Assembly: GCA_030041515.1 (NCBI GenBank)
Contig: JASHNS010000039.1
Span: 1 to 64,000, forward strand
Direction of reading: 5' to 3'
From: Acidobacteriaceae bacterium
GTDB taxonomy: Bacteria > Acidobacteriota > Terriglobia > Terriglobales > Acidobacteriaceae
Length of the DNA stretch: 64,000 bases
The notes beneath the pieces were generated by a model. It did no database searches. It was not told the DNA's origin and saw nothing but the letters and a program-made list of their open reading frames with translations. The translations under genes were made by a program, and so were the position numbers. Within the stretch, counting starts at the first letter, position 1. Each line of letters opens with the position of its first letter. Below, in pieces: positions 8,269 through 56,650 of this stretch.

Positions 8269-10968
8269 ATGCGGACGATACGGGGGGCCGGTATTGGCTT
8301 TTCGTGTGCGGTGGTGTGCGCGATGCTGGCGGCAGGATGCGGGAACAGCCCCTGGCACAGCTTGCCGGCGCCGCAGATCACGTCGGTTTCGGTGACCGTG
8401 AGCCCGGCGTCGATCAGCACGGCCCAGACGTCGCAGGCGACAGCGACGGTGGAGGGGATCGGCAGCTACTCGAGCGCGGTGACATGGTCGGTGAGCCCGT
8501 CGAGCGCAGGTACGGTGACAAGCGCGGGCGTGTTTACGCCGGCGACGACGGGAACGGCGACCATTACGGCGACTTCAACCGAGGACACGACGAAGTCGGG
8601 CAGCGCGACGGTGACGGTGACCGCGGTGCCGGCGACGATTACGAGCGTGACGGTGGGGCTCGCAGCCACGTCGATCACGACGGCGCAGACGGATCAGGCG
8701 ACGGCGACGGTCCTGGGCACGGGGGCATTCAGCACCGGGGTGATCTGGTCGGTGAGCGGGTCGGCGGGGGGCACGATTTCGACGACGGGACTGTATACGC
8801 CCGCGACGACGGGGACGGCGACGATCACGGCGACTTCCACGGAGGACACGACGAAATATGGAACTGCGACGGTGACAGTGACTGCGGCGGGGCCCACGAT
8901 TACGGTGACCCCGACGACGGCGACCATCGGGACGACGCAGCAGTTCACGGCGACGGTGAGCGGCCTTACCAGCCAGGCGGTAACGTGGTCGGTGAGCGGG
9001 CCGTCGGGATGGACGGGGAGCATTGGGTCCATCAGCACCACGGGGCTGTATATGACGCCCTATCCGGCGCCGGCGACCGTGACGGTCAAGGCCACGTCGG
9101 TGAGCAACACCAGCGTGAGCGGGAGTGCGACGGTGGCGCTGGTGGCGCCGGCGACGACGACGGGGCCGGCGCTGACGGTGGATGCAACGGATCCGCTGCA
9201 CGCGATCAATCCGCTCATCTATGGAATGAACGGTTACACCATCACCAACAACGATGTGACACAGGGGAATATTCCGCTGGTGCGGTGGGGCGGCGACGCC
9301 ACCTCGCGCTACAACTATCAGACGAACGTCACCAACTCGGCCAGCGACTGGTATTTCGAGAACGGGCAGGGCTCGGGGGGCATGCCGGGCGCCGGCAACT
9401 TCACGGGATTCGTAAGCGCGGTGCACAGCCTGGGCGCGGTGCCGCTGGGCACGGTGCCGGTGCTGGGCTGGGTGTCGAACAGCAGCACGACGGCGTGCAG
9501 CTTCCCCGTATCGACGTATCCGGGGCAGCAGAGCGTGGACCCGTACAGCGGCCTCTGCGGGAACGGCGTGTATCCGGATGGCACGAACGGCTGCACCAGT
9601 TCGGGCGGATGCAATATTCCGGGCGGCACCGCGGAGCAGGCGCTGACCAGCATTGCAGAGCCGCCGCCGGCGAATGCGGCGGCAACGATGCCGGCGGCGA
9701 GCGCGGCGACGACGACCTGGGCGCAGAACACGTGGGCGGGCGGATGGGTGAATTCGCTCGTGACGAACGCAAGCTATGGACCGGCCAGCGGCGGCACGGG
9801 CGTGAACATCTGGGATTTGGACAACGAGCCGGCATGGTGGGACGCGGTGCACCGCGATGTGCATCCGCTGCCCTCGACGTACGACGAGGTGACATACGGC
9901 GGAATCAGCACGGCGCTGGCGATCAAGACCATCGACCCGAGCGCGGAGGTGAGCGGGCCGGTGATCGACTACTGGTGGAACTATTTCTACTCCAAGCAGG
10001 ACATCGAGAACGGTTGGGGGCACGGGCCCTGCTATCAGCCCTGGGACGATCCAACGGATCGCGAGGCGCACGGCGGGGTGCCGATGATCGAGTACTACCT
10101 GCAGCAGTTCGCGGCGGCGCAGACAACCTACGGCATGCGGCTGCTGGATTACGTGGATATTCATGGCTACGATGCGGCGACGTACAACGGAGCGTCGGTG
10201 GGGTTTGCGACGGCGGGCGACACGGGCGAGCAGGAAGCGCGGATCAATTCGACGCGCGCGCTGTGGGACCCAACCTATACGGATCCGAATCTGCCGCAGC
10301 CGAACTATCCTGGGGCGACTGGTTCCACGACCAGCTGCAACGTGCCGCTGCAGGCGCCGCAGCTGGTGCCGATGCTGCGGAAGTGGGTGGCGAACGATTA
10401 TCCGGGAACGAAGACGGCGATTGACGAATATAACTGGGGCGGTCTGGAGAGCATCAATGGCGCGCTGACGCAGGCGGACGTGCTGGGGATCTTTGGGCAG
10501 TACGGGCTGGATTTGGGAGCGCTGTGGGGCGCGCCGACCACGTCGCAGGTTCCGGGGCTGATGGCGTTTGAGATTTACCGGAACTACGACGGGCATGATT
10601 CGACATTCGGCGATACGGCGCTGGCATCGTGCTCGGGGACGGCGGCGTCTTCGTGCGATGCGACGGGAACGAATGCAACGGCGCAGAATCAGCTGGCGGT
10701 GTATGGGGCGCTGCGAACGTCGGACAGCGCGGTGACGGTGGTGGTGATCAACAAGAGCTATGGCGCGCTCACGAGCACGCTGTCGCTGGTGGGGGTCACG
10801 ACGACGACGGGATCGGCGGCGGTGTATCAATACAGCGCGGCAAATCTAAATGCGATTATGGCGGAGACGAGCCAGACGGTGACGGCGCCGAGCGGCGGCG
10901 GGACGACGAGCACGATCAGCTATACGTTTCCGGGGCAGTCGGTGACGCTGTTTGTGGTGCCGCAATAG
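8269..10968 (+). CDS. GH44 glycoside hydrolase lipoprotein with three Ig-like domains
   Basis: 899 residues. Residues 1-24 are a lipoprotein signal with lipobox LAAGC (Cys24). Three bacterial Ig-like (BIG2-type) modules follow at about 35-120, 122-207 and 208-295. The catalytic part begins near ALTVDATDPLHAINPLIYGM and matches GH44 endoglucanase/xyloglucanase: WDLDNEPAWW with the likely acid/base Glu520, and AIDEYNWGG with the likely nucleophile Glu720. The far C-terminus is a beta-sandwich. Role: extracellular, surface-tethered attack on beta-1,4-glucan or xyloglucan. The ATG at 8269 with GGAG upstream is chosen because it gives the lipoprotein signal. The GH3 beta-glucosidase at 60 kb could act on its products. 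Confidence 0.88.
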   Translation: MRTIRGAGIGFSCAVVCAMLAAGCGNSPWHSLPAPQITSVSVTVSPASISTAQTSQATATVEGIGSYSSAVTWSVSPSSAGTVTSAGVFTPATTGTATITATSTEDTTKSGSATVTVTAVPATITSVTVGLAATSITTAQTDQATATVLGTGAFSTGVIWSVSGSAGGTISTTGLYTPATTGTATITATSTEDTTKYGTATVTVTAAGPTITVTPTTATIGTTQQFTATVSGLTSQAVTWSVSGPSGWTGSIGSISTTGLYMTPYPAPATVTVKATSVSNTSVSGSATVALVAPATTTGPALTVDATDPLHAINPLIYGMNGYTITNNDVTQGNIPLVRWGGDATSRYNYQTNVTNSASDWYFENGQGSGGMPGAGNFTGFVSAVHSLGAVPLGTVPVLGWVSNSSTTACSFPVSTYPGQQSVDPYSGLCGNGVYPDGTNGCTSSGGCNIPGGTAEQALTSIAEPPPANAAATMPAASAATTTWAQNTWAGGWVNSLVTNASYGPASGGTGVNIWDLDNEPAWWDAVHRDVHPLPSTYDEVTYGGISTALAIKTIDPSAEVSGPVIDYWWNYFYSKQDIENGWGHGPCYQPWDDPTDREAHGGVPMIEYYLQQFAAAQTTYGMRLLDYVDIHGYDAATYNGASVGFATAGDTGEQEARINSTRALWDPTYTDPNLPQPNYPGATGSTTSCNVPLQAPQLVPMLRKWVANDYPGTKTAIDEYNWGGLESINGALTQADVLGIFGQYGLDLGALWGAPTTSQVPGLMAFEIYRNYDGHDSTFGDTALASCSGTAASSCDATGTNATAQNQLAVYGALRTSDSAVTVVVINKSYGALTSTLSLVGVTTTTGSAAVYQYSAANLNAIMAETSQTVTAPSGGGTTSTISYTFPGQSVTLFVVPQ
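8377..8886 (+). repeat. Internal tandem repeat encoding the first two Ig-like domains
   Basis: Two adjacent ~255-bp units inside the GH44 gene encode nearly identical modules; both contain FTPATTGTATITATSTEDT or YTPATTGTATITATSTEDT. The similarity at DNA level suggests a fairly recent duplication. A third Ig module further on is diverged. Confidence 0.7.
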
Positions 10969-10971
10969 AGA

Positions 10972-10999
10972 GGAGACCGGAGACAGTAGACCATAGGCC
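10972..10999 (+). repeat. GGAGACAG..TAGACC repeat, left flank of the four-helix-bundle gene
   Basis: The sequence GGAGACCGGAGACAG then TAGACCATAGGCC follows immediately after the GH44 stop codon. An inverted copy lies at 11431-11466, so the pair brackets the gene at 11040-11426. Further members occur at 21085, 21771, 56519 and 56604. Confidence 0.6.
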
Positions 11000-11039
11000 G
11001 GAAAGTCGAGGTGAGCGAGAGGTTCAATTGGAGGAGGCC

Positions 11040-11426
11040 ATGGGAAGATCGTATCGGGATTTGCGGGTCTGGCGTGAAGCCGTGGCGCTTTTCGTGGTCA
11101 TTTACGATTTGACGCGGGGCTTCCCGAAGGACGAGTTGTACGGTCTCACGTCTCAACTCCGGCGCGCGGCTGTTTCGGTCGCGAGCAATCTCGCCGAAGG
11201 TTACGGGCGAGCGTCGAGACCTGATTTCCGGCGCTTCGCCGCTATAGCTCGGGGATCGCTGCTCGAAATCCAGACCCAGTTAACAATCGCCCTTCGGCTT
11301 GGATTTGCCGACGAGAGTCGTGTGCAGCCGGCGCTCGCAAAGACGGAGGATGCTGGGAAGATGCTGTGGTCGCTGATGACGAAGTTGGACTCCGAACGCC
11401 GGATCGATGCCGTCTCCAAAGCCTGA
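11040..11426 (+). CDS. Four-helix-bundle protein (S23/IVP-like, TIGR02436 type)
   Basis: 128 residues with the family pattern: YRDLRVWREAVALFVVIYDL at the start, LTSQLRRAAVSVASNLAEG in the middle, then FRRFAAIARGSLLEIQTQL. These proteins pair helices into a pentameric bundle; relatives are encoded in 23S rRNA intervening sequences and the related Avd protein works in diversity-generating retroelements, but the role of free-standing copies is unknown. The ATG at 11040 has GGAGGAGG two bases upstream. No reverse transcriptase or rRNA is nearby. The gene sits between inverted copies of a dispersed repeat, so it may be a mobile cassette. Confidence 0.85.
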   Translation: MGRSYRDLRVWREAVALFVVIYDLTRGFPKDELYGLTSQLRRAAVSVASNLAEGYGRASRPDFRRFAAIARGSLLEIQTQLTIALRLGFADESRVQPALAKTEDAGKMLWSLMTKLDSERRIDAVSKA

Positions 11427-11430
11427 CCAC

Positions 11431-11466
11431 GGTCTACGGTCTACGGGTTCCTGTCTCCTGTCTTCG
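11431..11466 (-). repeat. GGAGACAG..TAGACC repeat, right flank of the four-helix-bundle gene
   Basis: Read on the minus strand it runs GAAGACAGGAGACAG, GAACCCG, TAGACCGTAGACC. It matches the left flank at about 12 of 14 and 11 of 13 positions around a 7-base insertion. It starts five bases after the gene's stop codon. Its CGGTCTACGGG core (11437-11447) recurs exactly at 56618-56628. Confidence 0.6.
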
Positions 11467-12651: not shown

Positions 12652-12679
12652 AGTGATCAGGAGTCAGTGATCAGGAGTC
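12652..12679. repeat. Tandem 14-bp repeat at the dapA 3' end
   Basis: Two perfect copies of AGTGATCAGGAGTC (12652-12665 and 12666-12679). The second copy encodes the last residues of DapA (minus strand), and the stop codon TGA at 12664-12666 is formed at the junction of the two. Confidence 0.85.
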
Positions 12680-13572
12680 AGGGCGTGCGCAAGCAGGCCC
12701 AATTCGGCGGCGAGCTGCTCCAGATACGCGCGCGTGGCGGGCTGCACGGGCACCATGGGCAGGCGGTAATGCTCGCCAATGCGGCCCATCATGGCGAGGA
12801 CGGACTTCACGGGGCCGGGGCTGCTCTCTTTGAAGAGGCCCTGCATGAGGCGGAAGTACTTCTTCTGGATCTGTTGTGCGGCGCGCCGGTCGCCGTGCAG
12901 GGCGAAACGGATCATCTGCGCGGTTTCGGCGGGGATCAAATTCGAGACCACCGAGACGAGGCCAGCGCCGCCGACGCCGAGCGTGGCCAGGGCCAGCAGA
13001 TCGTCGCCGGAGTAGACGCGGAAGCCGGCCGGAGCCTGCGCGATGAGGTCGGCGATCTGGACGATGTTGCCGCTGGATTCCTTGATGCCTTCGATGTTGG
13101 GCGCGGCATCGATGAGGCGGAGCACGGTGGCGGGCTCCAGATTGACGCCCGAGCGCGAGGGAATATTGTAGAGCACGACGGGCAGGGGGACGGCGCGCGC
13201 GATGGCGCGGAAGTGCTGGAACTGGCCTTCCTGGGTGGGCTTGTTGTACCAGGGATTGGCGGTGAGAATGGCGGTGACGCCGGGCACCTGGGCGGCGGCC
13301 TCGGCTTTGGAGACGGCGATGCGGGTGGAGTTGTGGGAGCAGCCGGCCCAGACCGGCACGCGCCCTGCGGCGGCTTCCGCGACGATGCGGATGACGCGCA
13401 GCCACTCGGCGTCGTCGAGGGTGGGCGTTTCGCCGGTGGTTCCGCAGGCAACGAGCCAGTCGATGCCGCTCTCGACCTGCCAGCGGACCAGCGAGACGAG
13501 CGCCGGCTCGTCGATGCTTCCATCGGCGTGGAAGGGCGTGACCAGCGCGGTGCCGCAGCCCTGAAGCTCCAT
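12664..13572 (-). CDS. dapA: 4-hydroxy-tetrahydrodipicolinate synthase
   Basis: Condenses aspartate semialdehyde with pyruvate, the first committed step of diaminopimelate/lysine synthesis. It is a TIM-barrel lyase of 302 residues, normal for the family. Key residues are Thr45-Thr46 in GTTGE, Tyr135 in VVLYNIPSRSG, and the Schiff-base Lys164 in EGIKESSGN. The final residues (LTPDH) come from a tandem intergenic repeat, so the very C-terminus is probably not conserved. The other lysine genes asd, lysC and dapB lie upstream on the same strand, separated by two genes on the plus strand. Confidence 0.95.
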   Translation of the reverse strand: MELQGCGTALVTPFHADGSIDEPALVSLVRWQVESGIDWLVACGTTGETPTLDDAEWLRVIRIVAEAAAGRVPVWAGCSHNSTRIAVSKAEAAAQVPGVTAILTANPWYNKPTQEGQFQHFRAIARAVPLPVVLYNIPSRSGVNLEPATVLRLIDAAPNIEGIKESSGNIVQIADLIAQAPAGFRVYSGDDLLALATLGVGGAGLVSVVSNLIPAETAQMIRFALHGDRRAAQQIQKKYFRLMQGLFKESSPGPVKSVLAMMGRIGEHYRLPMVPVQPATRAYLEQLAAELGLLAHALTPDH

Positions 13573-56518: not shown

Positions 56519-56551
56519 GGAAACCGCAGACCGTAATCCGTAATCGGGGAA
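56519..56551. repeat. GTAGACC-family repeat at the ABC-F 3' end
   Basis: Reads GAAACCGCAGACCGTAATCC then GTAATCGGGG, directly after the ABC-F stop codon. Together with the inverted copy at 56604-56650 it brackets the terminator hairpin between two convergent genes. Confidence 0.45.
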
Positions 56552-56560
56552 TCGCGAAGG

Positions 56561-56597
56561 AAAAAGGCTGAGACGCTCAACGCGGCTCAGCCTTTCC
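56561..56597. terminator. Bidirectional terminator between ABC-F and sedolisin genes
   Basis: AAAGGCTGAG (56563-56572) pairs with CTCAGCCTTT (56586-56595). There is an A-run on the left and TTT on the right; the T-run is better for the minus-strand transcript. Confidence 0.75.
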
Positions 56598-56603
56598 TGT
56601 CTA

Positions 56604-56650
56604 CTGACTCCTGTCTGCGGTCTACGGGCTGCCGTCTCCCGTTTCCTGAT
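56604..56650 (-). repeat. GTAGACC-family repeat at the sedolisin 3' end
   Basis: On the minus strand GGAAACGGGAGACGGCAG then CCCGTAGACCGCAGACAGGA. The 11-mer CGGTCTACGGG (56618-56628) is identical to that beside the four-helix-bundle gene (11437-11447), with further matches on both sides. Confidence 0.6.

Follow-up and report, generated by a model that had tools for sequence, protein, structure and literature searches.

Inverted arrays of seven-base repeats flank four-helix-bundle (PF05635) genes in compact cassettes that appear to be mobile

RESULTS

A four-helix-bundle gene between two inverted repeat arrays

The window analyzed here (the whole stretch of DNA, 64,000 nucleotides) contains an intergenic cassette with a GH44 gene on one side and an ion-channel gene on the other, not inside 16S or 23S rRNA, in which a four-helix-bundle (FHB) gene is bracketed by two arms built of tandem 7-bp units (heptads; Table 1). 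Read inverted, the units of the right arm are GAAGACA GGAGACA GGAACCC GTAGACC GTAGACC, and their ungapped alignment with the left arm covers 34 bp with 27/34 positions identical (local score, 40). Of 2,473 alternative positions for a gap of equal size in this window, only 11 reach this score. The preliminary description had already placed the gene between inverted repeats, in a cassette spanning 10972-11466, and on both points we agree, since the span corresponds to the segment that is missing in the sister species G001 (10968-11464). It had matched mere fragments, because the arms are short arrays of degenerate 7-bp units, and had read these as inverted copies of one genome-dispersed repeat; the two arms instead have in common heptad arrays that are specific to the element. 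The FHB ORF lies between inverted repeats, as S23 ORFs of rRNA intervening sequences (IVS) do, and the window's arms and gene-free arrays are tandem 7-bp units in intergenic DNA, as in heptameric simple sequence repeats.

Table 1. Cassette and repeat arrays in the window
Feature	Position	Strand	Remarks
Whole cassette	10968..11464	.	Limits from sister species G001, whose empty site has 4 bp against 497 bp here
Left arm, tandem heptads	10967..11000	+	GGAGACC GGAGACA GTAGACC ATAGGCC; starts at the GH44 stop codon
FHB (four-helix-bundle) gene, 128 aa	11040..11426	+	PF05635, TIGR02436, NF008911
Right arm, inverted heptads	11430..11463	-	Starts 3 bases past the FHB stop codon
Gene-free half-array past the ion-channel gene	12653..12683	+	Unit TCAGGAG/TCAGTGA; by eye, below the array-listing threshold
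Gene-free heptad array, first half of inverted pair	56521..56558	+	By eye
Gene-free heptad array, second half of pair	56597..56646	-	Period-7 array search; the copy in the preliminary description

Inverted arms at other FHB genes

This genome has three genes of the FHB family (PF05635/TIGR02436, also called S23), and inverted arms are found at 3/3, each with a unit of its own: about GTAGACC in the window, GGGGATA on contig C119, and a 15-bp (7+8) unit, AGCGGGTAGCTAAGA, on contig C9. The family is present in 47 of the 61 genomes searched (this genome and 60 relatives). With match levels derived from random pairs of flanks of different loci, inverted matches exceeded the 95% level at 66/72 main-family loci of related genomes (two duplicates and one short-contig locus left out), 18/20 low-scoring members, 7/8 plasmid loci (from 8 of 25 plasmid records), and 66/78 GTDB loci (those with enough flank among 80 kept from 579 confirmed matches), and the 99% level at 51/72, 15/20, 7/8, and 48/78, respectively, counts that include three duplicate or near-duplicate pairs (L027/L123, L098/L099, and L100/L101). 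Convincing arms were absent at 6/72, 2/20, 1/8, and 12/78 loci of the same sets, as well as at 5/20 loci of a further set that includes Nostoc paludosum (L270). The question of whether other FHB genes are likewise flanked can therefore be answered in the affirmative for this genome and for most loci elsewhere. The GTDB loci span Acidobacteria, Cyanobacteria, Chloroflexi, Proteobacteria, Bacteroidetes, Fibrobacteres, Planctomycetes, Gemmatimonadetes, Firmicutes, Nitrospirae, candidate phyla, and archaea (Methanophagales), not every locus being armed.

The arm rule extends past the main FHB subfamily, given the 18/20 divergent members. Several units of this divergent subfamily (L076-L095, low-scoring for PF05635) are richer in A/T, e.g., GATTTCG or ATTGGGTA. 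In a set from the family of Pseudoxanthomonas, with full flanks for 27 of 29 new loci, only 9/27 exceeded the 95% level of mismatched pairs, which is low because these loci share related units that raise the mismatched-pair baseline.

With respect to controls, we observed arrays in 252/356 flanks adjoining FHB genes versus 22/341 flanks 1 kb away, the array period at FHB flanks being lag 7 in 185 of the 252 and in some 14, 8, or 15. PIN genes from the same 61 genomes (30 loci returned, 25 with full flanks) passed the same threshold of inverted match in 1/25 cases, compared with 66/72 for FHB relatives; arrays, exclusively of period 9 or 12, were present in 5/50 PIN flanks (FHB relatives, 109/144), and none of the 50 held an array of period 7, 8, 14, or 15. 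Furthermore, 464 kb of this genome contain 10 period-7 arrays, three of which are arms of the two heptad-unit FHB elements in that sample, so that such repeats are too rare for bracketing to be expected by chance. Frequent repeats and a lack of flanks at other FHB genes were the two grounds for refutation named in the preliminary description, and neither applies. We reject chance bracketing on the placements in the window, the distant flanks, and the PIN genes.

Anatomy of the arms

A typical cassette measures ~0.45 to 0.6 kb and consists of one FHB gene between inverted arrays of mostly four or five 7-bp units. Across the 101 elements whose arms both contain heptads, the median unit similarity between the two arms is 0.84 in inverted orientation, 0.44 in direct orientation, and 0.47 between elements, and an element's own partner arm ranks in the top 5% for 93/101. 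A single conserved repeat dispersed through the genome is rejected, as arm units differ from element to element. Despite these differences, 142 rotation-aligned units share the consensus NNN[CT][AG]G[TG], i.e., a YAG core, with a logo of 3.28 bits (20 shuffles: average, 2.25; maximum, 2.38). The core points inward, and held-out units fit this polarity in 495/556 tests (139 elements, four repeats). The left array ends a median of 41 bp from the domain start, and the right array begins a median of 5.5 bp past the stop codon. The number of heptads per arm peaks at 4, then 5, and an exact count of five to suit a five-fold ring is not established. Units of 8 bp or alternating 7+8 (15 bp), instead of 7, occur at L003 (contig C9 of this genome, G000), L044, L110, L138, and L061.

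That heptameric microsatellites generated by polymerase slippage merely happen to flank FHB genes is highly improbable. A 2007 study, to which PMC4679880 and PMC4692102 refer, proposed slippage as the source of the excess of heptamers, and heptamer copy number does vary among Coxiella strains (PMC4990558), but slippage makes no inverted partner, whereas the arms are mirror images with a shared unit in 93/101 elements, a relation that is rare both at PIN genes and, as arrays, in flanks 1 kb away. Slippage may still be a source of copy-number drift within an arm.

Units are correlated with the proteins that they flank. Median unit similarity is ~0.46 at 40 to 45% protein identity, 0.57 at 60 to 70%, and 0.77 above 80% (6 pairs), and unit similarity follows protein identity overall with a Mantel r of 0.17 (2/1,000 permutations as high); the signal is weak in the 35 to 60% identity range, where 26/1,000 permutations reach it, and weak below ~55%. 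Two related proteins from distant hosts, L110 (Nitrospirae) and L138 (KSB1), both have the 8-bp unit AGGCACAA. Co-inheritance alone could account for the correlation. The window site is also occupied in G006, where neighbor genes are ~87% identical and the FHB gene 75.5%; here and in G006 the arms match within each species and do not match the other species' unit. Such joint divergence of both arms would be expected from recognition by the protein or from arm-to-arm conversion.

The FHB protein

The window protein matches PF05635 at 120.5 bits (cutoff, 33.8) and TIGR02436 at 115.1 bits (cutoff, 24). Its AlphaFold model (monomer; pLDDT, 93.7) is closest to Xcc0516 (2gsc; Z, 20.8; 1.6 Å over 117 residues), followed by BT_0352 (2rld; Z, 16.6) and Avd, the latter represented by 4dwl (Z, 14.3 at 1.6 Å) and 8ub7 (Z, 14.3), with entries of the ribonucleoprotein of diversity-generating retroelements (DGRs) at Z 13.8 to 14.3. 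The next matches are unrelated helix bundles with Z up to 12.9 at about 3 Å, so that the case for Avd depends on the small rmsd no less than on Z. This is in line with the resemblance of PF05635 to Avd noted in PMC10053308, and Xcc0516 is described as a homopentamer (PMC4990558). Among eight measurable FHB pairs (15 tried; 6 saturated and 1 with a stop), dN/dS is 0.05 to 0.13, i.e., the protein is under purifying selection in these pairs.

Profile matches to the window protein include no recognized nuclease or transposase domain. There is no RVT_1 match on the window's contig, the sole one of this genome being on contig C103, and 29/47 FHB-bearing genomes, some of them incomplete, have none. 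An obligate resident reverse transcriptase is rejected on this count. Taken together, the lack of a recognizable nuclease or transposase domain and the 29 genomes without an RVT_1 match indicate that the joining reaction is probably borrowed.

Empty sites and mobility

Empty sites, whose existence in sister strains had been raised as a question, were found in sister species for all three cassettes of this genome, and four plasmid sites have empty counterparts too. The 497 bp of the window site correspond to 4 bp in G001. Other congeners are not simply empty there: the interval measures 146 bp, with one-sided arrays, in G008, and 610 and 719 bp in G005 and G007, respectively. At the C119 site, G001 and G006 have 66 and 79 bp, respectively, without visible arrays, and the interval holds PF05635 matches in G005, G007, G008, and G009. 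G010 (L201, G010:C336) carries at this site a gene-free array pair with, by eye, an apparent vestige of an FHB gene between the arms, which is possibly a deletion derivative. The C9 site measures 8 to 25 bp in G003, G004, G007, G010, and G011 versus ~560 to 580 bp here.

The empty sites in Nostoc and Calothrix plasmids are sharper than that of the window. In a comparison of plasmids from 8 of 9 Nostoc records, three have a cassette with unit TCAGGAG between genes B and C of a four-gene operon, one of these copies having an annotated gene of just 240 bp, and five have none at that position; plasmid c of ATCC 53789 has no B-C cassette and a different one (unit, ~GGGAAAA) between C and D, a position without a cassette in the other seven. 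In addition, two plasmids of Calothrix brevissima carry a cassette that is absent in Tolypothrix PCC 7601, Aulosira laxa, and N. carneum, and in N. edaphicum a cassette lies between ribonucleotide reductase genes that are without it in Calothrix NIES-4105. By eye, the junctions of the genome and plasmid sites revealed no consistent target-site duplication. TTCTA at both ends of one Nostoc copy is not established as a target duplication, as it can also be read as heptad sequence. The pattern of presence and absence could in part reflect loss.

Several cassettes from the family of Pseudoxanthomonas (L297, L304, and L308) seem to share the same two neighbor genes, presumably accB and accC, which suggests preferred insertion sites.

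Gene-free arrays

Arrays also occur without an FHB gene. The gene-free copy reported earlier at 56604-56650 is indeed an array of related units, and it forms one half of an inverted pair with the array at ~56521-56558. Inside this pair, positions 56559-56596 form a hairpin resembling an intrinsic terminator (aaaggctgag...ctcagccttt). Gene-free arrays and pairs of the TCAGGAG type are site-polymorphic in the same Nostoc operon that hosts the cassettes. A gene-free inverted heptad pair is also seen at L323 2787-3046 in G057, a genome without a PF05635 match, and is perhaps the relic of a lost element.

The 309 kb taken from 10 chosen FHB-bearing genomes (one without readable sequence) contain 21 period-7/8 arrays, versus 4 in the 267 kb of 10 genomes lacking an FHB gene. 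Nine of the 21 come from one genome, their gene-free status is taken from an incomplete list of PF05635 matches, and 2 of the 4 in the comparison set look low-complexity, so that this is a weak indication that gene-free arrays are commoner in FHB-bearing genomes.

These observations make it improbable that the FHB gene is an autoregulated, immobile host gene with the arms as operators or attenuators and the apparent insertions as old gains and losses. The close spacing of the arms to the gene (medians of 41 bp on the left and 5.5 bp on the right) and the purifying selection on the protein in measurable pairs would suit such a gene, but not the site-exact presence and absence in relatives, the related plasmids with two different occupied sites and different units in one operon, the gene-free copies, or the element within 23S rRNA described below.

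rRNA intervening sequences and published heptamers

In Azospirillum lipoferum AZO_p2, an Rfam LSU match places the FHB copy within 23S rRNA, and its arms consist of GGACGGA/TGACAGA heptads; by BLAST, L103 is the only one of loci L001-L183 inside 23S rRNA. With an FHB cassette in this position, rRNA intervening sequences and FHB cassettes seem to belong to a single kind of element. Tandem GACAGAT heptamers, strain-variable in number, precede the S23 ORF of the Coxiella IVS, which also has a 28-bp stem that is cut by RNase III; the same account mentions an earlier suggestion that the ORF of the IVS had a role in mobility and describes IVS functionality and origin as still unclear in 2016 (PMC4990558). 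Likeness to IVS with an S23 ORF (Coxiella, Leptospira, and Brucella) extends to the protein family, inverted terminal repeats, a size of ~430 to 500 bp, and sporadic presence, whereas FHB cassettes mostly lie outside 23S rRNA, have element-specific heptad arms as the rule, and have gene-free derivatives.

This resemblance raises the possibility, which we consider tentative, that FHB cassettes are RNA-level parasites of the IVS type, with arms that serve solely as an RNA stem excised from transcripts by RNase III, spread through an RNA intermediate, and a protein acting as an Avd-like RNA chaperone. Such a reading accommodates the element inside 23S rRNA, the RNase III-cut stem and heptamers of the Coxiella IVS (PMC4990558), and the fold match to Avd, including DGR ribonucleoprotein chains, and the arms do pair in the predicted RNA of the window. 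The folding of the whole element, however, only modestly beats shuffles (z, -1.74; 4/100 shuffles as good) and is not decisive, and the 29/47 FHB-bearing genomes without an RVT_1 match count against it. Furthermore, a bare stem needs no 7-bp repeat with a conserved YAG core, and stemless gene-free single arrays are site-polymorphic too.

Heptameric repeats, among which the cyanobacterial STRR are counted, also include units identical to those of FHB arms. The published Nostoc heptamer forms FHB arms in Nostoc paludosum (L270; GGGGACT/GGGGATT), and GGGAATC or GGGATTC arms occur in several genomes of the family of Pseudoxanthomonas wuyuanensis (e.g., L288, L291, L296, and L302). GGGAATC of Xanthomonas and GGGGA[TC]T of Nostoc have been described as G-quadruplex or regulatory repeats that are "generally" not associated with mobile elements, the Xanthomonas heptamers being present mostly in four copies and forming 70 (Xcc) and 75 (Xac) convergent pairs; as of 2015, according to that study, heptameric repeats had not been treated in detail in the literature (PMC4692102). 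A further published heptamer, of Beggiatoaceae, is TAACTGA. Among the matches listed, open-licence PMC titles and abstract openings contain no link between the FHB family and heptad repeats, the Coxiella paper apart.

DISCUSSION

The general occurrence of the arms and the empty sites lend good support to the suggestion in the preliminary description that the ~0.5-kb unit is a non-autonomous mobile cassette, and we have little doubt that it is mobile. The explanation that we favor, and consider probable, is a compact mobile element with an Avd-like protein that recognizes its own heptad ends and a DNA-joining enzyme that is borrowed. That the FHB protein recognizes its own heptads, in keeping with the earlier suggestion that it binds the repeat as RNA or DNA, is likely, if somewhat less so than the explanation as a whole; from sequence and predicted structure, this is indicated indirectly by the co-inheritance of unit and protein, by the YAG core and its polarity, and by the Avd-like fold. 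The symmetric ends, their polarity, and the joint inheritance of unit and protein suggest that the FHB protein confers specificity at each end, and the relation to Avd would favor nucleic-acid binding together with a partner enzyme.

In the proposed mechanism, the FHB protein, a ring of five in its relative Xcc0516, would recognize the heptads of its element at both ends, in the form of single-stranded DNA, hairpin DNA, or an RNA stem of the two arms, and would bring the cassette ends together, with the DNA joining done by a host or other enzyme. TRAP was considered as an analogy. Gene-free arrays would be deletion derivatives or trans-mobilized copies, and in transcripts, including rRNA, the paired arms may form an RNase III-type stem that makes an insertion tolerable, as in IVS. 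Our confidence in any particular chemistry of movement is low.

Compared with known systems, the cassettes resemble miniature inverted-repeat elements (MITEs) and nonautonomous insertion sequences in being short, with inverted ends, site-exact presence and absence, and gene-free forms, and differ from MITEs in that their ends are tandem heptads, they have a small gene of their own without a recognized catalytic domain, and no target duplication was identified. They share the fold of their protein with Avd of DGRs (4dwl and 8ub7), from which they differ in being without a reverse transcriptase (none on the window's contig). With the heptameric repeats of Xanthomonas and Nostoc they share the 7-bp unit itself, identical units serving as FHB arms.

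We give an even chance to a wider proposal, that FHB cassettes in Bacteria and Archaea are transposase-less mobile elements in which an Avd-like ring protein reads tandem YAG heptads at the two ends as an address specific to each element, the unit drifts jointly with the protein, genome-wide heptamers are gene-free offspring, and rRNA IVS are members that landed in rRNA. FHB cassettes may thereby explain why 7-letter repeats litter bacterial genomes, and two puzzles would meet, the role of the S23/FHB protein and the over-representation of seven-base repeats in bacteria. Each FHB gene would predict its own candidate binding sequence, adjoining the gene, and the pairs of FHB protein and arm would form a natural panel for learning by what means a helical-bundle protein that forms rings might recognize nucleic acid.
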